Shown here piece by piece: positions 3 through 36,505 of a stretch of 64,000 nucleotides of DNA (position 1 is the first letter of the stretch; each line of letters starts with the position of its first letter). Source of the stretch: Eremothecium cymbalariae DBVPG#7215. Taxonomy: Eukaryota > Ascomycota > Saccharomycetes > Saccharomycetales > Saccharomycetaceae. The translations under genes were made by a program, and so were the position numbers. The stretch spans positions 310,001 through 374,000 of the forward strand of contig NC_016455.1 in the NCBI RefSeq assembly GCF_000235365.1. The letters are read 5' to 3'. A model generated the notes under the pieces. The model made no database searches. It was not told the origin of the DNA and saw nothing but the letters and a program-made list of their open reading frames with translations.

Positions 3-731
3 CATCATCACCACCAGCAGCAGCAGCAGCAACAGCAGCAATTGATTAATCCATTGCAAACGTCTTTTCAAAAGACTTATCCACAGGTTTTCTACCCCAG
101 TTCTTCAAAACCAAATGGTAATGGAAGCAATATTTCTTTGCCTTTGATCGCTCAACAAACACCACAACCCGGGCAACAACAAAGCTTTTTGACTTCCAGC
201 TCGTCTTCAGGCTCTACTTCGCCACCTAGATTGCAAAGTTCTATAAGTGGAGGATCTACAATTAACTCGTTAAGTAGTGACTTTGGTGACTATATTATGC
301 CAAGCGACTTCCATAAGCAATATGATAGTATTGCTTATGGACAGACTGCAAGTGGCAGCCCAGCCATGAGCAACTTTAACATGGTATCTCCTTTTGTTCA
401 GAGCAATAGTCCTCCGATCTCAAGTGCTGCAACTTCTAACGATTTGATGCAAGTATTCCCATCTTCTTTGCTGGGTGATACATCTTCTAGCGGCAATGTC
501 TCGTCTTTGAATGGATCCAGGTCTATGGTGGCATCCATGTTCTCCTCTAACTCGTTTCCTTCTTCTTCCAATCAATCTACTTTTACGATGTTGCCGGCTG
601 CTAGTTCCACCTGGGGGAATTCAACTGGTGTTTCCACTGCTGGTCCTACAACGGTTAATCAGTCGAGCACCTCGTCTACTGCCTCAGGTTCTTTTGGTAT
701 TTGGAATAACGACATGAGTGTCTGGGGTTAA
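3..731 (+). CDS. C-terminal part of a YBL081W-like Ser/Asn/Gln-rich protein (5' end outside window)
   Basis: The reading frame is already open at the left edge and begins with a His run and a Gln run, so only the last 243 or so residues are present. The rest is Ser/Thr/Asn/Gly-rich and low in complexity, ending in the short conserved-looking tail FGIWNNDMSVWG. It converges on PET112, as YBL081W does with YBL080C in S. cerevisiae, and the tail matches my memory of the YBL081W C-terminus. No domain or catalytic motif is visible; the function of the family is unknown. Assignment rests on synteny plus the tail and was not checked by alignment. Confidence 0.7.
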   Translation, partial: HHHHQQQQQQQQQLINPLQTSFQKTYPQVFYPSSSKPNGNGSNISLPLIAQQTPQPGQQQSFLTSSSSSGSTSPPRLQSSISGGSTINSLSSDFGDYIMPSDFHKQYDSIAYGQTASGSPAMSNFNMVSPFVQSNSPPISSAATSNDLMQVFPSSLLGDTSSSGNVSSLNGSRSMVASMFSSNSFPSSSNQSTFTMLPAASSTWGNSTGVSTAGPTTVNQSSTSSTASGSFGIWNNDMSVWG

Positions 732-3725: not shown

Positions 3726-4732
3726 TTATTTGGGGAATACAATGTCAGAAGTTTTGAGGATGCGTTTTCTTAAAGCACATTTTGCCTGTGCGGAAGGACA
3801 GTGTTCAAAACTGTCGTTTGGAAAATCCCAATTTGATAGTGATGATGATGATGACGACCATTGTTTGAAAATTCCACTCAAGTCAATTGATTCTTCGAAG
3901 GCTTTATTGTTAGATCTGATTTGAAGGACAGTTGCCGGTAACCCTTTGTTTGGTTTGGGTGCTACATCCTCGATTAGCACATCTACGTCATTTATACATG
4001 CATCCTTTGTAGGTTTGACGTCTATCTTTGGTAATACTAGCCATTCCTTGCCTTGCCACTCTTCCTGTTTCAGAGCATCTTGGGTTGAAGAAACAACCCA
4101 GTTACTGTCAACAGCATTATATACTTTTTTGCAGTAACATTGAGTTCTTAGGTTGCCAATTTCTATAGCATCTTTATTATCAAAGCACTCTAATTCGAAC
4201 AAAAAATTGGTGCGACATTGACATAAATTTTCTGGTGATAACCCTTCTTGGCAAAACATATGATCACATTCAGATATCTGCTGCACTTCAAATTCTCGGA
4301 TCAGGAGCTGCAATTCCATCAATGAGTCTTTGGTTAATTTTCTAGTACCATTTTCTTTCGCAGCTTTTTTAGGTTGGAAGCATTGGTTCAATTCTTCTGT
4401 GAGATTCCCCGCAGTAGTCGGAGAATCGCCAAATATAGTTGTGTAGACCTGATCTTTTGCAATTGGGTTCTTGTTCTCCTTATTTTTTCATCGTTATCAT
4501 AAAATGAAGCAGATGATGATGTCTCGTTCATGAAGCTGTTCTTATTGCGTAAACTTCGTTTCCGTTGAACATTGACATCAAATTGTTTTAACGCTCTTTT
4601 GTATGATTTCCTGTCCATCTCTAAGTTTATAGAGGTAAAGCCTTGATTAGTACTATGTGTACATATTAATGTCGTTTCGCCAGCGCTGACGGGGATCGAT
4701 TTATATATGTGCATGACAGGCGCCTGTGACAC
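3726..4732 (-). CDS. Unrecognised protein, frame apparently broken at an A-run
   Basis: Two overlapping minus-strand frames lie here. The first (4732 to 4388) starts with ATG and encodes a basic, Ser/Asn-rich stretch. The second runs from about 4480 to 3726, has no ATG near its beginning, and opens directly behind a six-A run (T-run at 4483-4488 on the plus strand). One extra A in that run would fuse the frames into a single protein of about 335 residues, continuing DEK into NKENKNPIAKDQ, which includes a KEN-like triplet. The C-terminal half has several Cys (CQCRTNF, QCYCKK), an acidic Asp/Ser patch and a basic end (ALRKRIL). I do not recognise the family. Sequencing error, true pseudogene or programmed frameshift are all possible. 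Its neighbours (PET112, JSN1) give no functional clue. Confidence 0.55.
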
Positions 4733-16722: not shown

Positions 16723-16926
16723 CTTGCGTTTCCGGCTCTGGTTTTTTCTGCTAACCGCTGAGCTGGGATCTCTGTTGTGTAAATACGCCTGCTGACGATG
16801 ACAACTTTCCCCGTGTTTGTTGATCCTATCCTGGTGCTTTGTAGCCGATCGACCAGGAATTCTAAAGGAAGAGGGGGACGGAAATAGAAGAGACAACAAT
16901 CAAACCTTTGGCTGCTGTTGATCAAA

Positions 16927-16966
16927 CAAAACAAACAAACAAACAAACAAACAAACAAACAAAAAC
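16927..16966. repeat. AAAC/CAAA tandem microsatellite
   Basis: About nine to ten copies of a four-base CAAA unit, located about 200 bases upstream of the IME1 start in the probable 5' UTR or core promoter. Confidence 0.85.
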
Positions 16967-17866
16967 TACAATTTTTTGTCAACAACCAGGGGAAAAAATA
17001 ACAAACAACTAAAAGCAGAAGAAGAATAGTATAATAATCGTTGACTCGAGCGGTGTGGCGTGGCGTGTGCCCTCTTTCTTTATGTGAAACAAAAGGTTTT
17101 ATATAATGCACAGTTGCCAACGTAACACAACTGTTTGTAATCTAATTATCGAAAGGGCGGCGGATGGCGGCGGGCGGGCGGGCGTTATTGGTAAGGGAGG
17201 AGGAAGGAAGAACAAGAAAAAAAGAACGAAGATAATGGCTAAAGGAAATCAATTAAAACTGAAATGGTATGGCTTATATATATATATATGTATGCATACA
17301 CAATAAAAACCCCATGTTCTTGTTTGTGTTTATTGTAACGGCTCCTGCTGTGTTCCTGCAAAGTAAAATATAAAATATAATGAAAAACCACTCCAGCCTA
17401 ATAGAAAGAAGAAACAAAATCAATAACAATACCCAGAACGGTAGTAGCAAAAAGCTGTTGATGATGATATTAACAATACATTTGGGGGCTGTTATTAGCT
17501 AGCCAGTTTCTTCTAGGGGGGAGGGGCGCGCGACTAATCAATGGGAAAGGGACTTACTGGTTTTATTCTCTGATTTCTGTCTGTGCGTACGTAAGTGAGT
17601 AAAAATAAAGTCTAAGTAGCCTTGGCTTGAATACGTGCGCGAGTGCGTGCGTTTACTGGCGCTGCAGAAATTTAATCAACACGCAGCACAGTTGCAAGTG
17701 GTGATGCTGGGGGACGGGGTTCTGTTCCCACAAGCTGCATCTTTTGCTGCCGGTGTGCTGGGCAGGCAGCTGGCCAGCAGCTATCGAGATTACAGACTGG
17801 CAAAAAAACCAAGCTATTTACTAGCGTACAGCAGCTGATAGAGAGAACTGATAGATAGTGTATGTT

Positions 17867-17892
17867 ACTTCGGTTGCAATAGCAACCGAAGT
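17867..17892. repeat. Perfect hairpin, 11-bp arms
   Basis: ACTTCGGTTGC and GCAACCGAAGT flank an AATA loop. The stem can be lengthened by a G-T wobble and one more pair. Confidence 0.85.
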
Positions 17893-18403
17893 GAATATTA
17901 TTATGATTGCCTTTGGAGGGGCTAGTGCGGGATAACAGATAGGGACTAAAGTGGTCTTAGCACTGGTGTTACAATAGCAGCACATAACGGCGAACGTTTA
18001 TACCAGGTGTGGTTCTTTTTTCCACCCCAGTGCCGGTCCGCGCTCCCAACCAAACCCCCCTTCATCCCTTCCCCTTTCTAGAGTCAGTCAGTCGATCCGA
18101 CACAACTTTAGGCAAAATGTAAATCGATCCGCTAATCATCTCTCTGGGCTTGGAATATAATTAGAGTAGCAAATAAACAAGCAGCACACACAACGATGGA
18201 AAAAAGGGAAAAACAAGATTTGGCCTCAGCTTACCGAAGGTTTACGCAGAGAGAGGGAGCGAGATTTAACGGAGGGCCGGTTGGGAAAACACAATCGCAG
18301 CTGGGGCGTAATGTGCTGCCGGTGTGTGGGTTTTGGATCGCTTTACTTTTACCAGGCTATCATCAGATTATGAACATATGCACACGATATATGCGCTTCG
18401 GTG

Positions 18404-18421
18404 TTTACCCTTTCGGGTAAA
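18404..18421. repeat. Small perfect hairpin with TTTC loop
   Basis: TTTACCC and GGGTAAA flank the loop TTTC, the same loop as the larger hairpin at 18648. On the opposite strand the loop reads GAAA, a stable GNRA tetraloop if transcribed. Confidence 0.7.
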
Positions 18422-18647
18422 GACATTATCTATGTCGACGACGAAGTCAGAAGCACTGTTATTCAGCAAGAAAAAAGAGCAACGTAAGCCTTTACCGATT
18501 AACAAGCAGGGCCCAGAGAAGGGCAGAAGAGCACGAGCGGCCAAAAACAAATTTTGTCTTCTTTGTCTTGAGTGTTGAAACAATGTGCCCGCGCCAGCAC
18601 GCCAATCTAAGCTGATCTCCGTGGGCTGTGCATCTTTCTCTTCGGTG

Positions 18648-18683
18648 GTCTCCCCCGCCAGATTTTCATCTGGCGGGGGAGAC
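18648..18683. repeat. Perfect GC-rich hairpin, 16-bp arms
   Basis: GTCTCCCCCGCCAGAT and its exact complement ATCTGGCGGGGGAGAC flank a four-base TTTC loop (GAAA on the minus strand). No mismatch in 16 pairs. It lies in the IME1-RPL43 spacer. Confidence 0.9.
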
Positions 18684-19079
18684 AACGCGCAGAGGCTGCT
18701 GCTGCTGCTGTTTCTTGGTGGTGCCGCCCCACCCATACCCCCAAGACACATAACAAGGGTATTTTAAACCGTGGCCCAGATCCAGCGGGGATTTGGACTG
18801 GGTAGCGATGGAGGAAGGCATGAAAACAGTTTTTCTTCCTATTTGCCAAAAGCGGCATACAAGACTGCAGGTTAGTGGTAGAGGCGCGATCCACGGCCAG
18901 GAAAGGTCTGGTGACCGTGGGCTAGGCTGGGCTGGGTGTGGCATTATGAGCCTGTCCCTCGGTACGGTTTGCAATGGTATACAGACATGCAACAGAGTTG
19001 CATGGTGCACATAACCGAAGTGTGTGTATGCAATGGAACGGGTGTGGGCGGGGGCAACCGTATGTATGTTATTATATAT

Positions 19080-19109
19080 ACCGCGGCCGTCAGGCCGCGA
19101 GGCCGCGGT
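19080..19109. repeat. GC-rich inverted repeat cluster
   Basis: ACCGCGGCC at the left and GGCCGCGGT at the right enclose a further GGCCGCG copy, so alternative stems are possible. It lies just upstream of the Rap1-like site of RPL43. Confidence 0.6.
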
Positions 19110-19116
19110 GACTGCT

Positions 19117-19129
19117 GCACCCGTACATG
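19117..19129 (+). promoter_or_regulatory. Rap1-type site upstream of RPL43
   Basis: GCACCCGTACATG closely matches the Rap1 consensus ACACCCRYACAYM that drives ribosomal protein genes in budding yeasts. It lies about 200 bases before the preferred RPL43 start. A weaker CACCGCACCATG match follows at about 19145-19156. Confidence 0.65.
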
Positions 19130-19331
19130 CGTGTGTACCTCCGCGCACCGCACCATGTGCATAACAAGAAAGTGGTGCGTTGCGCCCAGGCGCCCCTGCC
19201 GGTCGCAACGCGCCGTTCAGCATGATGGGCGCCAGCGTACAACCGACTTCTGAAAAAATACAAACTGAAGAGACTCCATCAAGTGTAAACCTTGTATCAT
19301 CTAGCAGCTACAGAACGAACGACAGACAAAA

Positions 19332-19714
19332 ATGTATGGATATCCGTGTTAAAACCTATTGCTGGTCCAGAGTACCCCAGAGCTCTCTGCGGTGCTCTGG
19401 AGCCCCCGCACCGATCATATTACTAACATCCCAACAGGGCTAAAAGAACAAAGAAGGTTGGTATTACCGGTAAGTACGGTGTCCGTTATGGTTCCTCCTT
19501 GAGAAGACAAGTCAAGAAGTTGGAGGTTCAACAACATGCTAGATACGACTGTTCTTTCTGCGGTAAAAAGTCCGTCAAGAGAGGTGCCGCTGGTATCTGG
19601 AACTGTTCCTCGTGCAAGAAGACTGTTGCTGGCGGTGCTTACACTGTCTCAACCGCTGCCGCCGCCACGGTCAGATCCACCATCAGAAGATTGAGGGAAA
19701 TGGCTGAGGCTTAA
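19332..19714 (+). CDS. RPL43: 60S ribosomal protein L43 (eL43), spliced, 2-nt first exon
   Basis: Exon 2 (19438-19714) encodes the zinc-ribbon protein eL43 of the large ribosomal subunit: [20 protein letters not shown] at the start, the Cys4 zinc site CSFCGKK and CSSCKK, and the end [19 protein letters not shown]. It needs two upstream bases (AT) to complete ATG-GCT, as in S. cerevisiae RPL43, which has a 2-nt first exon. Branch site TACTAAC is at 19421-19427, and the 3' splice CAG ends at 19437. I prefer exon 1 at 19332-19333 (context ACAAAAATG, donor GTATGG, intron 104 nt) because the Rap1-type site then lies upstream. An alternative exon 1 at 19062-19063 has the perfect donor GTATGT but would place the Rap1 site in the intron. 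Confidence 0.85.
19334..19437 (+). other. RPL43 spliceosomal intron (preferred model)
   Basis: Donor GTATGG, branch TACTAAC at 19421-19427 and acceptor CAG only 11 bases after the branch A. A 7-bp stem (CCAGAGC 19377-19383, GCTCTGG 19394-19400) sits before the branch site. The alternative donor at 19064 would make a 374-nt intron. Confidence 0.65.
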
Positions 19715-20512
19715 ACCACGGACTGGGGGACGAATTTCTCATTTTGTAAAGTTACATAAAAACGACTGTTTTTGAACATATAATATATGCGCCTGCCGCT
19801 GTTTTTTTCTCTAGCACGCTGTGGTCACGTGCCTGTTGCTCGCCGATCACGCGACCGCGGTCCCGTGATCGGCGACGCGAACGCGCAGACGCGGCGTTAC
19901 CGCTTCCCCCGGGCGCGCCGCTGGTACCTCGCCCGCCCCCATTCGTCCCGCCCGGGCCCCCCATAGACAAAGGCTTTGGTCCGGAGTTAACCGCCCCAAC
20001 TTTTTCTGTTGCCCATTCACCGGTGACTCGAGAAAATTGCATACTGGGATAATCGGCGGAAACAACCTGAAACAAGCCCGCCAAATTAATTCCTTAAAGG
20101 CATTTTCCCCGTATCAGTTTTTCAAAAACTATGGCGGGCAGCGAGTGTAGCTTGTGGAAGCTCCCAAGTGCAAAAGATGTGCTTTTCATACGATTCCAAT
20201 TGGCCGATGAGGTGCAGTGTGTATATGTATGTACGTACGTTGGCGTTAATTGGGCGGCTAGGGTCGGGACCTCTGGGCTTGCGGGTGATAAGTAATAACG
20301 ATAACAGTTAAATAAGTCATGTGGACATTAAAAGCTCTTAAAGGCGGGTGGGCGGATATTTTTCGGTAAGCGGAGTCATTCTTTGAAATATATATATACG
20401 ATATACAAGTTATATGTGCGGTGTGGGGTATATATATCTGAATATAGGAAACAAGCTGGGAACGGAATTTGCAAGATACACGTCGTAGAAGAGAGAGCCA
20501 GCACAGAAAGAT
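19715..20512. promoter_or_regulatory. SFC1 upstream region
   Basis: Very GC-rich near 19820-19980, unusual for this window. It carries a near-perfect 36-bp palindrome (19840-19875), a CACGTG box at about 19826, and at 19939-19949 CCATTCGTCCC, one mismatch from the carbon-source-responsive element bound by Cat8/Sip4, which controls SFC1 in S. cerevisiae. The regulatory role is inferred, not shown. Confidence 0.5.
19840..19875. repeat. 36-bp near-perfect palindrome
   Basis: TCGCCGATCACG at the left and CGTGATCGGCGA at the right, with the centre GACCGCGGTC itself palindromic. The only mismatch is one C-C pair at 19852/19863. Confidence 0.85.
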
Positions 20513-25595: not shown

Positions 25596-25884
25596 GGGAA
25601 TGACCGCCCAAGGGTTACCCGCACTCCAACACCCCAACACCACCATAGGGCTTCTCCTCGCGTGAAAAAACGCTCGCTATAAAAAAAATTTCAACCCGTC
25701 CTCTTCCACCTCCTCTACCTCTACTAGTTTGCTATGTCTCGAATAACAAACCACATATTTTTAAAACTATCTTCCGGATTACCAGCTATGGCATATTCTC
25801 TTCCATATGCTCAATAGCAAAAATGGCCGGAAGTAGAACAACTCCCCACCTGGCATAACATAATCCGGCTAAAAACAAAAATGC

Positions 25885-25925
25885 TTTTGGCCGCCCTCCG
25901 TTCATGAAACGGAGGGCGGCCAAAA
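25885..25925. repeat. Perfect hairpin, 18-bp arms
   Basis: TTTTGGCCGCCCTCCGTT and its exact complement flank a five-base CATGA loop. It lies about 300 bases after the aldo-keto reductase gene and is the longest perfect stem in the window. Confidence 0.92.
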
Positions 25926-26030
25926 CTCAACTTTTAAGCTGGTTCGCTCTAGGTATACAAATTGTGCAACAACTCACTTTCTAAATAGACTAGTACAAAA
26001 CATGTCTGCCGCAAACAGAGATAACAAAAT

Positions 26031-30535: not shown

Positions 30536-31252
30536 ATGTACGAGAAAATTAAGGCGGTGATTCCGTTGGAATCAAGTCCAGAAATCTTTACCAACTTTGC
30601 ACATGAGTTGGGTTTAAAACGTCAGATGGCATTTGATGACATTTATTCGTTGACTGAGCCAGATTTAATGGCGTTTCTGCCAAGACCTATGAAGTCTATC
30701 ATATTATTATTTCCAGTTAACGAATTTTTTGATGCGACTAAGAAGAAAGAGGGTGAAAATGACGATGAACCTATTGACTCTCCAGATGGTCCTGTGATAT
30801 GGTTTAAACAAATTATAAGCAATGCTTGTGGTTTATATGCATTGCTACATTCGCTAGCAAACAATCCAGATTGCTTGACGGAAGGGTCGGTACTAAAGGA
30901 ATTTTTGTCATTGAATAAGAGGGAAGATGGTAAATATAACGATGAACCAACGGCCGATTTTATGCTATCGATTAGTGAGTTGTACCATAAGAATTCCAAA
31001 CAGGGCCAGACTGAGGCTCCGTTGCCAGAGGCTACTGTTGACCTACATTTTATCACGTTCATAGCGCATGGTGGCAAAATATTTGAACTCGATGGCAGTA
31101 GGAATTCGGCCCACTGTTTAGGGCCTGCTCGTGGCGAAGACCTCTTGGATGAGGACTTGGTAAAAGGTCGTGTTCAATGGTACATGGATCATGCGGATGA
31201 AAAAATGAAGCACCAATTCTCCTTAATGGGCATGGGTCCTTCCTGGGATTAA
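30536..31252 (+). CDS. YUH1: Ubiquitin C-terminal hydrolase Yuh1 (UCH family)
   Basis: A 238-residue cysteine protease that cleaves small adducts from the C-terminus of ubiquitin and processes the ubiquitin-like Rub1. UCH signatures: WFKQIISNACGLYALLHSL holds the catalytic Cys (about residue 98), DLHFITF the His (about 170) and KIFELDG the Asp (about 187). The ATG at 30536 gives MYEKIKAVIPLESSPEIFTN, which aligns with the N-terminus of the S. cerevisiae protein; codons open further upstream lack ATG. Matches YJR099W in synteny. Confidence 0.96.
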   Translation: MYEKIKAVIPLESSPEIFTNFAHELGLKRQMAFDDIYSLTEPDLMAFLPRPMKSIILLFPVNEFFDATKKKEGENDDEPIDSPDGPVIWFKQIISNACGLYALLHSLANNPDCLTEGSVLKEFLSLNKREDGKYNDEPTADFMLSISELYHKNSKQGQTEAPLPEATVDLHFITFIAHGGKIFELDGSRNSAHCLGPARGEDLLDEDLVKGRVQWYMDHADEKMKHQFSLMGMGPSWD

Positions 31253-31400: not shown

Positions 31401-33143
31401 TCACTTCTGTCCCTTAATATCAACCTTTACTGGCTTATTATAGCGACTTAAAATAGTAGATCGACATTCTTTAAAATTCAAATACATAGTGTCCGCATCA
31501 CCCTCAGGTAAGACCACAAAATCGAATAAATCGAAATCAGTCAAAAACTGGAAGGTTTCATCTTCATCCTTGAGACTTAATTCTGAAACTAAAAAAGACA
31601 ACCGTAATTGATTGTAGGCACAACACATCGTTTTCAAGGCTTTTAGCCTTTCCCGCTTGATAAATTCATTTATTAAACTTTTCATTGGACCCTCTGTCTT
31701 ACCATATAGCTTCATAAAAGAATGATAATCTCCCTGAGATTGAGCTTGTGCCATATTTAGAGATAACTCAATCATTGGGTCATTACACAAATCATTATAC
31801 TCAACCAATAATTTTAACCGGATCTCATTAATTGAAGCATGATCCTCAGTCAACAAGTGATATAAAATACGATAACTCATAAATTCAGCAAAATGCTTAT
31901 TTTCTATGTGTTTCTGTTCAAATAGTTCACTGATACTACCCTGACATTGGTTATATTCACCCAAATCCCCATTTTCTAATGCAAGTTTCGCATGCGTCTG
32001 GTATACCTTTAAAGTAAAATCATTCTCTATAAGCTGGACCTTCAAATCCTGTCTGATGGATTTAAACTGGTCACAAAGGTAAGCATATGATGCTTGCTTC
32101 TGACGCTTCTCCATTATAAATTGAAAAGCTCTTTCCAAAATATGTAGCGGACGAACATTGTTGGGATCAGGTTCACTTGTTAATCGTAGGTACCTTTTTT
32201 CCAACGTGTTACAACGCCCTACCACAGGATTATTCTTGTCAAACTTGTAGAAATGATTACTTGTGGCATTTAAGTTAGAGAAATCGTCATCATCAGCAAC
32301 TGTGTTTTTCTTCGATGCCGATCCACTAGCAGCAAACCGCTCTAGTCTTCGTCTCTTTCTATCTTGTTCTGTTAGGGATTTCTTGTCGTGCAGTCCAGAT
32401 CGAGGTAAATGTGGCTGCTGAGTAAAGCCAGCTTTGTTACTACTATTCAAGTTTTTACCCACTGCAACGGATTGAGCAGGAGATGGTGAATCTAGTACAG
32501 TTTCTGTAATGACAAGCTTTCGCTTATTATTGTATGCAGTTTCGTTCATTTCGCATTGTAATTGCATTGGAGGTGTCAGACCACCTCTACTAAATACAGG
32601 CACGTGAGGCTGCTGGAACCAGTCATTCTTCCATTCTTTGTTAGTGGCATACGCCTTGGAAATTAGTTTATTTGCTTGACTAATAAACATCTTCATCTTT
32701 ACCTCATTAAACTTCTCCTGTGTAGCCCTGGCGTATTGTCTATCAATCCAGTTAATCAACCCAGGGGGTTTATTAGCATACGCATCTTTTGGAGAAAAGA
32801 AGAGAGAATAATCAGGTATACATAAATTGTCAGGAACTTTTACAGCATTCCCAGCAATGGTTGATTGAGGTATAGTGTGGCTGCTGAGAGTGCCTCCATT
32901 ATGTTGCTGCTGCAGTACAAAACTACTGTTATGACGACCACTTTGAAATCCAATGTATCCACTGCCGCAAGACTTCAACGCATCAAACTGAACAGTATCT
33001 ATTGAATTTTTACCGCTTACAGAAGACGAACCACTATCCTGAAACTGGCTTTTTATACCAGAAGACATAGATGCATCGTTGTTCGCTTGCGCCTTAGACC
33101 CACTACCCAACTTCAGGGGCGTGACTTGGTTGTAATTATTCAT
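31401..33143 (-). CDS. THP3: Thp3, SAC3/GANP-domain transcription-elongation and splicing factor
   Basis: A 580-residue protein with a SAC3/GANP-type helical domain in the C-terminal half (EKRYLRLTSEPDPNNVRPLH, then HILERAFQFIMEKRQKQASY, DFTLKVYQTHAKLALENGD, EFMSYRILYHLLTEDHASI). Thp3 pairs with Csn12 in mRNA maturation and elongation in the nucleus. The N-terminal half is Ser/Asn/Gln-rich, with a basic RKRRRLERFA patch. I start at the ATG of MNNYNQVTPLKLG, since the upstream open codons have none. In S. cerevisiae THP3 (YPR045C) is next to MCM16 on chromosome XVI; here MCM16 is two genes away, with YJR101W and YJR102C orthologues between, as expected for a pre-duplication order. Confidence 0.9.
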   Translation of the reverse strand: MNNYNQVTPLKLGSGSKAQANNDASMSSGIKSQFQDSGSSSVSGKNSIDTVQFDALKSCGSGYIGFQSGRHNSSFVLQQQHNGGTLSSHTIPQSTIAGNAVKVPDNLCIPDYSLFFSPKDAYANKPPGLINWIDRQYARATQEKFNEVKMKMFISQANKLISKAYATNKEWKNDWFQQPHVPVFSRGGLTPPMQLQCEMNETAYNNKRKLVITETVLDSPSPAQSVAVGKNLNSSNKAGFTQQPHLPRSGLHDKKSLTEQDRKRRRLERFAASGSASKKNTVADDDDFSNLNATSNHFYKFDKNNPVVGRCNTLEKRYLRLTSEPDPNNVRPLHILERAFQFIMEKRQKQASYAYLCDQFKSIRQDLKVQLIENDFTLKVYQTHAKLALENGDLGEYNQCQGSISELFEQKHIENKHFAEFMSYRILYHLLTEDHASINEIRLKLLVEYNDLCNDPMIELSLNMAQAQSQGDYHSFMKLYGKTEGPMKSLINEFIKRERLKALKTMCCAYNQLRLSFLVSELSLKDEDETFQFLTDFDLFDFVVLPEGDADTMYLNFKECRSTILSRYNKPVKVDIKGQK

Positions 33144-33679
33144 AATATATGTTGAATGTATGTTTTTAGACAGCAAATTTGCAATATATTACTCCCAGGA
33201 TGCCTTAGTTCGGTACTTCAAATACAATAAATCTTTTGTAGAGCTAGGATTAGGAGTGAAATAAAATAAAATATCAGTAAAACGGATTTAAACAACTCCA
33301 ATGCCAAAAGTAAATAAATCGCTATGTACGAATTATCTGAACTGAACTGATTTATAAAATGGAGCTGTGGGAATATTCACCTATTACTCCTCCAAATAGA
33401 TGCCTAATTCTATATTTTAATGCCAAGTTTAGTGGCTAGATACATTTCATTTTAATCGCAGTCTTTTGCGTTTATTTTTGCCCTTGTTTTCTGATGCAGA
33501 CGTTTGTTGACTTTGTCATATGAATTCAGCGACATCTAGAATAGTTAAATCTCTAATCTTAAGAGATGACCATTTGTATAATGGTATAAACGAATATGTA
33601 ACAATTAGAATACAGAAAGTAGAATGAAAAATTTTAGGGTGGCATAACAAAACGACGAATTCTTTTCTCCATCTAAAAG
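33144..33679. other. Intergenic region between THP3 and the AIM25 pseudogene
   Basis: AT-rich. Contains the THP3 promoter and the former 3' region of AIM25. No further gene is visible. Confidence 0.5.
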
Positions 33680-34470
33680 CTAGATGCCTGCAGTTCCCAG
33701 AGTTGAATTACGATTCTTGGAATATTGGGAAGAATAATCAAAGTCTAAGAAACTGTATTAGCGAGCAAGACTGCCCTCTGGTCCAGTGGCAGATTCCGTG
33801 AGCCTATTACATCTGATGATAGACTTCTTGAAAAGATATTTCTGAATCCATATGAAGGACATACACTCTTGTGTCCATCAGCAGCTCTCTTCTCATGCCT
33901 GGCCAGCTTCCTTCTAGATCACCAACGATATTGCCATCCTTTGGGCGACAGGGGACTTGAAACTTAGGTGTGATGAACTTACTTCGGCAAAGTGTACAAA
34001 TTCAGCGTCAGCTGAAGCAGCGTTCTTATGATGTAGTCTATACTTTCTTCTCCATACACGCCACTTTTGGACGATCTCATTAATAATTACTCCACTATCG
34101 TGTGGAGAATAATTTCCAGCAAATTCACCATTCGATGGTTCTGCTGTAAACTGGTGTTGTATTCGACTGGTGTTGTATTCGACGTTGTTCTGGCAAGATG
34201 GCTTCTATACGCGAATTAATCCAGAAAATGGTCTTATTATAATCAGGATATGACTACCATAATTATCATAACATCTATTATAAATGAACGACTAAACCGA
34301 AACATTTGTCTCATAAATGAATTATCAAACCAGATTTACGTTTCCTCATGTGTCCAATTTTGCTACCAAAACATCCATTATCACATACCTATTAGCCTAT
34401 TCCAACCCAAAAATTAAAGTTCTCATGCCAATTTGTCTCTCCAATGTTATAGTAGGTTGGTTAACTATCG
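33680..34470 (-). pseudogene. AIM25: Decayed AIM25 (phospholipid-scramblase family) gene
   Basis: The minus strand holds ordered fragments of a scramblase-like protein in shifting frames. From 34468 downward: IVNQPTITLERQIGM, then an in-frame TAG between FGLE and ANRYVIMD, GSKIGHM, MRQMFRFSRSFIIDV, DNYGSHILII, FWINSRIEAILP, EIVQKWRVWRRKYRL, GDLEGSWPGMRRELLMDTRV, then LPLDQRAVLLANTVS and LDFDYSS, ending at a TAG at 33680-33682. At least four frame changes and one internal stop are needed, so no intact product is possible. A 16-bp tandem duplication (34151-34182) is one visible lesion. Position between YUH1 and RSM26 on the minus strand is exactly that of AIM25 (YJR100C) in S. cerevisiae. The N-terminal end is not recognisable. 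Confidence 0.9.
34151..34182. repeat. 16-bp tandem duplication
   Basis: CTGGTGTTGTATTCGA occurs twice in direct succession inside the AIM25 pseudogene. As 16 is not a multiple of three, it shifts the frame. Confidence 0.85.
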
Positions 34471-34985
34471 TGGTCGCAATATGATGATGCACCCGAATTA
34501 TTGCAAGCCCAATATTCGTAATAGAATGACACCATGTTTTACCCCGGCGTTTCTTCGTAATCCTGCTTACATCTTTCTATAGCAGCCAAGCTAAATGATA
34601 TTTGGATACACGCAGCAATATGTGTCAGACTATTCCGCAACAGCAACAGGTATTCACTGTCGATCGGAATGTTATAGGATCAAATAAGTTGATGGCTATT
34701 TTCTTTTTACCTCGTATATATCCAATTTGAAATTGCAAAATACTCCTAAAAATTCGTTGGATACATTCTCACAAATAAGATTGCTTAGTCTTAATTCATA
34801 AAACTATCTCCGCATAAAACAAATCACAAGCCAGATAAATGCGATAACTTCTTAGCGTTATTCACTTAACTTACTGACTATTACATCTGTGTCGAGCTGG
34901 ATATTTCTGTCTGTTGACAGATTTGCGTAAAAAGTGATTATAAATTTTTTCGATAAATGAAGATGGTTGATAAAACTGAATAGTG
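34471..34985. other. Upstream region of RSM26 and remnant AIM25 promoter
   Basis: No gene is seen. A nine-codon upstream ORF (ATG 34957, stop 34981-34983) ends two bases before the RSM26 start codon. Confidence 0.5.
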
Positions 34986-35783
34986 ATGGCCAAGTTCTTT
35001 AGAATTAGTACTCTGAAGTTAGGTTATATGATCAAATTTGCTGCTCGAAGAGCCATCCATACGGTACCAAGGCTGCCGGGAATCTCCAAGCTGGAAACTG
35101 AAGGAATTCCTAATATCTTTAGCGCGGGAGGTTTTAAACAATGTTGGTTAGATCAACAGAAATACTTGTGTGACAAACTAACGTTAGCAACCGCTGGTAC
35201 AGCTTTAGAGTCATATCTTCCTTTCCATATTGTGTTGAACACTGCAAAAAAACCGTTTCAAACACATATATTCAACCTAGCATCTGCAGCACATAATAAC
35301 CATTTGTTCATCGAGAATATATTACCAACAGATGGTGTTGAGACTAAACCATCTAGATTGTTTGAGCAGCGTATTAGGGCTCAGTTTGACCACAGTTGGG
35401 AAGAGGTGAAGGAAGAAATGGTTAGGCGTTCCGAACAAGAGGTTTTGGGCCAAGGCTGGTTGTTTCTGGTAGAAAACGCTAACAAAGAAGTGCATATTCT
35501 CACTGTTCAGAACAATGGTACGCCATACTACTTTCCTAGAAACCAATCGATCGACTTCAATGCTCCTGTTTCAACCGAAGATCTCGATCAGTTCAAGGAA
35601 ATTGAAGCGTTGGCGAGCAAAGGAGATGTTGAAGATTGGACGATGCCGTTAATAGCCGTCAATCTTTGGGATCAGGCCTACTTGAAAGACTATGGTGTTG
35701 CCGGTAGATCCAAGTATGTGAAAAACGTATTAGATAACTTGAACTGGATTGCGATTAATAAAAGGCTGTATTCTGGGAACTGA
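34986..35783 (+). CDS. RSM26: Mitochondrial small-subunit ribosomal protein Rsm26 (mS42)
   Basis: A 265-residue protein of the mitochondrial small ribosomal subunit, derived from an Fe/Mn superoxide dismutase fold without its enzyme activity. The N-terminus ([20 protein letters not shown], then [12 protein letters not shown]) is a clear mitochondrial presequence. Relics of the dismutase fold: [18 protein letters not shown] in the middle and [17 protein letters not shown] near the end, in place of the metal-binding DxWxHAYYLDY of active enzymes. I start at ATG 34986, right after a GTG in the same frame. Matches YJR101W in synteny. Confidence 0.93.
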
Positions 35784-35929: not shown

Positions 35930-36505
35930 CTATACTACCTTAACGGCAACCACTTTACCATCGTTGGTAATCATCGTAGCTCTACCTCTATCTACCAACT
36001 TACTTAATGCGAGCTCACAAATTTGTTCGTTCATGCTATAAAACTCCCAAGCAGAAGAATCATCGCCTGAAACTATTTCATATATCGTTACCACTTGATT
36101 TAGTTTTCCAGTGGTTTCGAACCACTGTAATAAAAGAGAACTCCAGGAATCTAAGGACTTCCACAAGATGTAAAAGCTATCATTAGTGTGTTTTAGGACA
36201 GTTCCCTTTTGAAGGGCATACACCCAGATTTCATCGATGAAGGGATCTGGAACCTGTCTCTGAATGTTTTCATTTACAAACAAACTATGGTCCTGCTTCG
36301 GCTCCAAAAGTTTTCCATCATGTGAGATCAACCAACCTTTATTCTCTCTAGCATGCTGAATCAATATATTCACCCACGTCTCTAACTGCTGTTTACGTAT
36401 AAGCGAATTAGGCTGCCGAGTATATAGCGGCGGAAAGTCATAGATTGGAGGGAATGGCATTGGTAGCGTAATTAAATCACACTTTGCACCGTTGCAGCTG
36501 CTCAT
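35930..36505 (-). CDS. VPS25: ESCRT-II subunit Vps25
   Basis: A 191-residue protein with two winged-helix domains. Vps25 is the ESCRT-II subunit that contacts Vps20 of ESCRT-III on endosomes during multivesicular-body sorting. The family opening is present: FPPLYTRQPNSLIRKQQLETW (the PPxYT-Q-N core that docks onto Vps22/Vps36), then W--LI pattern helices, and the second winged helix around LDSWSSLLLQWFETTGKLN with the ending GRATMITNDGKVVAVKVV. It is divergent from MCM16, with only 90 bases between the starts. Matches YJR102C. Confidence 0.94.
   Translation of the reverse strand: MSSCNGAKCDLITLPMPFPPIYDFPPLYTRQPNSLIRKQQLETWVNILIQHARENKGWLISHDGKLLEPKQDHSLFVNENIQRQVPDPFIDEIWVYALQKGTVLKHTNDSFYILWKSLDSWSSLLLQWFETTGKLNQVVTIYEIVSGDDSSAWEFYSMNEQICELALSKLVDRGRATMITNDGKVVAVKVV

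Follow-up and report, generated by a model that had tools for sequence, protein, structure and literature searches.

The product of YJR100C is Slm35, and in the available part of PMC5270667 the mutant is described, after earlier work cited there, as having raised loss of mitochondrial DNA. In the accessible portion of PMC12817334 (2026), Slm35 is presented as a tubby-like protein, soluble in the mitochondrial matrix, that keeps mitophagy and RTG signalling in check, and a section heading of that paper states that it does not alter growth under respiratory conditions. Here, we analysed a window of 64,000 nucleotides from Eremothecium cymbalariae DBVPG#7215 (contig NC_016455.1, positions 310,001 to 374,000 of the forward strand), in which a sequence-only reading had claimed that AIM25, the YJR100C gene, died in place. 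Gene identity, gene order, strand, multiple lesions, lost constraint and the finding of no second copy are all concordant with this claim. With a probability of about 0.95, we regard the interval as a unitary pseudogene, i.e. as the AIM25/SLM35 orthologue and the sole PF03803 gene found in this genome, decayed at its ancestral locus.

With the read-through of the relic alone as query, a protein search returned 237 candidates, none of them at E 0.001. A two-row alignment of the read-through and a family-like sequence led to 1284 homologues, and P0010, a protein of 324 aa encoded on a 19-kb contig of a Logan assembly, led as query to 1217, the best 120 being used in each case; the latter 120 extend well past the family Saccharomycetaceae. 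A search of solved structures with the profile of the two-row alignment gave no match. Similarity to PF03803, the scramblase-type Pfam family, spans the domain in the relic, as it should in an AIM25 orthologue, in two stretches (Table 1). When 120 homologues were compared with positions 33401-34900 by tblastn, a check that the sequence-only reading had proposed, the top E-values of the 12 homologues that led by summed score ranged from 3e-19 to 6e-37 and their blocks lay in frames -1, -3 and -2, which confirms the scramblase-family similarity of the interval. The nearest kin of the relic are Saccharomycetaceae Aim25 proteins, again as for an orthologue, and the six peptide fragments quoted earlier are indeed found on the minus strand, in the order given and in three frames.

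Aligned in a frame-tolerant manner to a profile built from 22 Aim25 proteins of Saccharomycetaceae type, the relic extends over 264 codons and shows eight frame breaks and one in-frame stop. The first run gave the same lesion counts as four additional settings, which varied the profile (two in all) and the frame penalty (14, 20 or 25) and of which three used a profile without P0010. The alignment scores 450, whereas no more than 44.5 was reached by 40 pieces taken elsewhere in the window and no more than 38.3 by 30 single-base shuffles. The intact frame of an AIM25 orthologue is thus missing, and the frame-breaking lesions of a unitary pseudogene are present, five of the eight breaks of this finer alignment lying inside the frame -1 tblastn block. 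The in-frame stop and the 16-bp duplication reported before are both there; the duplication is a perfect one, its length is no multiple of three, and it may be among the later lesions. The alignable remnant corresponds to residues 46-318 of P0010, while the first 45 residues, which should be the mitochondrial leader region, do not align to the relic. The interval proposed earlier (33680..34470) had the locus right but its 5' end wrong, beginning about 35 bases late, as the alignment reaches 34504.

The neighbouring genes place the relic at the ancestral position and on the ancestral strand of AIM25. Beyond VPS25 follow a CENPH-type gene and then a CTP synthase, and the PDB record 1u5t names YJR102C and the YUH1-URA8 region. 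In S. cerevisiae, YUH1, AIM25, RSM26 and VPS25 are YJR099W-YJR102C, and on this reference order the neighbours YUH1, RSM26 and VPS25 match the locus and strand of YJR100C/AIM25 that had been assigned to the relic. Since THP3 and MCM16 of S. cerevisiae are located on the duplicated sister block, the gene order of the window fits the pre-duplication order. The relic had been described as lying between YUH1 and RSM26; RSM26 is its direct neighbour, but YUH1 is not, as THP3 sits between YUH1 and the relic. The relic adjoins RSM26 in divergent orientation, as would suit a relic that is transcribed and kept as a regulatory RNA, or retained within the RSM26 promoter region. Of the alternatives to an unused pseudogene this one fares best, yet we consider it very improbable, as the interval holds no Rfam match at gathering score and its recognisable content is decaying protein code.

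Table 1. Coordinates of the relic, of its neighbours and of other features of the window (position 1 is the first letter of the window).
Feature	Position	Strand	Evidence or remark
AIM25/SLM35 (YJR100C) pseudogene remnant	33695..34504	-	frame-tolerant profile alignment, tblastn, PF03803
PF03803, stretch 1	34022-34483		E 6.7e-8, over the curated cut-off; 6 stops inside
PF03803, stretch 2	33831-34031		E 4.2e-4, not over the cut-off; 3 stops inside
tblastn block, N-terminal and middle part	33956..34510	-	frame -1, P0010 row
tblastn block, later part of domain	33813..33962	-	frame -3, P0010 row
tblastn block with LDQRAVLLANTVS segment	33748..33846	-	frame -2, P0010 row
16-bp perfect tandem duplication, linker region	34150-34165 / 34166-34181	-	sequence repeat
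YUH1, intact	30536..31252	+	open frame; PDB relative 7en4, E 2e-60
THP3 (SAC3/GANP), intact, 3' side of relic	31401..33143	-	open frame; PDB relative 7ewf, E 3e-75
RSM26 (mS42), intact, divergent, 5' side of relic	34986..35783	+	open frame; PDB relative 8d8k, E 2e-98
VPS25 (YJR102C), intact	35930..36505	-	open frame; PDB relative 1u5t
DUF5349 match, near window edge	297-728	+	profile positions 254-359 of 360 only; below cut-off
MAM1 (monopolin) ORF	3726-4714	-	begins at profile position 100 of 257
Near-perfect 19-nt inverted repeat	18645-18686		95% complementary; 4-base loop
snR5 H/ACA snoRNA	25754-25962	+	full-length Rfam match, 96.2 bits

Among the features away from the relic, the MAM1 frame appears by eye to be open upstream of its first ATG, at least to 4478, and the gene may have a missing 5' exon or another frame problem. 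The inverted repeat belongs to a region of some 3.8 kb (16723-20512) whose two ORFs of more than 100 aa are without a Pfam match; with up to two mismatches allowed, the 28-base core of the repeat matches the genome once.

Constraint on the relic was examined at 108 columns that are invariant across the 22 intact proteins, 103 of which align to a codon of the relic, the remaining five falling on breaks or gaps. At these 103 columns the relic has kept 61 residues, changed 41 and gained one stop, so that 42 of 103 are changed or stopped, whereas the intact proteins, each of the 22 being left out in turn, showed 0-7 changes at 108-115 columns and hence at most 7 of 115. Such a loss of constraint is that of a unitary pseudogene, and the losses of conserved residues occur along the whole gene, its middle part included. 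At first and second codon positions where the amino acid fixes the ancestral base, 38 of 156 differ (0.244; 95% interval 0.18-0.32), evenly split with 19 changes at each position; transitions account for 28 of them and transversions for 10. In 7 of 59 cases the third-position class, too, is broken.

These figures leave little room for an intact gene whose damage is only apparent and stems from sequencing or assembly errors. Indel-type read errors do exist, but they do not resemble 38 changed bases at first and second positions of invariant columns, where the 28 transitions against 10 transversions look more like mutation, nor would they be expected to put eight frame breaks into about 800 bases beside neighbouring genes that are open. 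We give just as little credence to a gene that still functions by means of introns, programmed frameshifts or a shortened protein, for although the middle part has a stop-free stretch in one frame, conserved residues are gone there as well, no ATG-initiated ORF of more than 55 aa overlaps positions 33144-34985, and all eight frame breaks would require decoding. The intron, recoding and read-error readings were thus rejected on residue drift, stable lesion counts and ORF absence.

For the pseudogene, the Jukes-Cantor distance at the same first and second positions amounts to 0.295, or about 0.3 substitutions per site, which is a low estimate because the alignment chooses the frames that maximise likeness; a few of the counted changes may be older than the death of the gene. 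The mutation rate of yeast is a few 1e-10 per site per generation. With such rates, the relic would date back, in order of magnitude, a thousand million generations, and it is therefore readable while its loss is not fresh. The earlier impression that the loss looks recent was accurate insofar as the remnant is easily read, but this distance and the 42 invariant residues lost speak against a fresh event.

Whether another copy exists had been raised as a question, and none was found. In six-frame searches of the genome (9,669,424 bases, 8 contigs), for which scoring was confined to the top candidates of an initial pass, PF03803 and P0010 as queries each led to the relic locus only, and the related, tubby-like LOR family PF04525 gave no match. 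Within this scope, the 9.67-Mb genome yielded no functional copy, as is to be expected for a unitary pseudogene.

Among the matches listed, P0010 is the closest intact kin of the relic. The two form a pair with a support of 97/80 in a tree of 83 rows (the proteins of 285-345 aa among the 120, plus the relic) and of 95/95 in a tree of 24 chosen rows, values that call for caution because the branch of the relic is very long (~6 changes per column). The AU test speaks against a grouping of the relic with five rows of Kluyveromyces type (p 0.024) and only marginally against one with four rows of Zygosaccharomyces/Torulaspora type (p 0.052), these groups having been named after a tree had been inspected. 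Furthermore, the relic carries four of the eight private residues of P0010, but of the private residues of the remaining 21 proteins, 57 in all, it has only two, and the four shared with P0010 persist when the profile is built without P0010. In a tree without the relic, P0010 stands on its own long branch and falls neither into the Kluyveromyces group nor into a starred set. Judging from these protein comparisons, P0010 may come from Eremothecium or from close to it. With 7 changes at 115 columns that are invariant in the others, P0010 also ranks highest among the 22 intact proteins, and constraint on it may have loosened, too.

No row named Eremothecium or Ashbya occurs in the best 120 of 1284 or the best 120 of 1217 homologues, many rows of which are without a full name. 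This hints that the annotated proteomes of Eremothecium might be without an Aim25 protein, and a loss across the whole genus is possible but unproven. As a more specific scenario, which we put forward tentatively and think rather doubtful, AIM25 would have been lost repeatedly within Eremothecium, its constraint having loosened already on the stem of the genus as a filamentous, multinucleate lineage did away with the mitochondrial restraint on mitophagy and on retrograde signalling; the decay would then be caught midway in E. cymbalariae, and the relative that encodes P0010 would still have an intact gene. In the part of PMC3276169 available, E. cymbalariae is described as having eight chromosomes and a Ty3 transposon, and as missing 86 A. 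gossypii genes that have S. cerevisiae homologues; since the list of these genes is in the supplement, the absence of AIM25 has possibly been published already. Our literature search found no paper that joins AIM25 with either Eremothecium or Ashbya, though supplementary tables may contain such an entry, and none on a pseudogene or gene loss of a phospholipid scramblase in yeast. In the accessible part of PMC6121567, Slm35 appears in the reference list only, and Ashbya gossypii in another context.

As to how the gene was lost, we propose that the Aim25 protein became dispensable in this lineage, that selection on AIM25 then lapsed, and that substitutions and small indels would afterwards have gathered neutrally. 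Because Slm35 of S. cerevisiae is reported to restrain mitophagy and RTG signalling, the lineage presumably lives without this brake. The genome does contain a Ppx-GppA protein of the RTG2 type, which is probably RTG2 (open frame of 589 aa), and ATG11 (open frame of 1116 aa), both matching without stops, and therefore at least parts of the pathways that Slm35 is reported to restrain remain. There is nothing unusual in a non-essential mitochondrial gene becoming a unitary pseudogene, but this one also gives a clue to what may be a genus-wide loss: if other Eremothecium species are likewise without the protein, the relic suggests a true loss and not a missed annotation. Moreover, E. cymbalariae, a filamentous relative of baker's yeast, would be naturally knocked out for AIM25/SLM35, and what is reported of Slm35 in mitophagy and in retrograde signalling could be compared there with no need to construct a deletion.

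In comparison with known systems, the relic shares with AIM25/SLM35 of Saccharomyces, Lachancea and Kluyveromyces the Pfam family (tblastn E-values down to 6e-37) as well as the strand and the neighbours, the latter according to the S. cerevisiae gene order, but differs from them in a frame that is broken many times and in conserved residues that are drifting. With P0010 it has 121 of 264 aligned codons identical, yet P0010 is intact. The more distant likeness is that to the human PLSCR family: in the available part of PMC5270667, Slm35 is assigned to the phospholipid scramblase family, whereas the authors of PMC12817334, in the portion of the text at hand, report a soluble protein and argue that it plays no part in phospholipid metabolism. 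The word scramblase, under which the relic was first described, is best read as the name of its family, the discussion of PMC12817334 arguing against lipid scrambling by Slm35.
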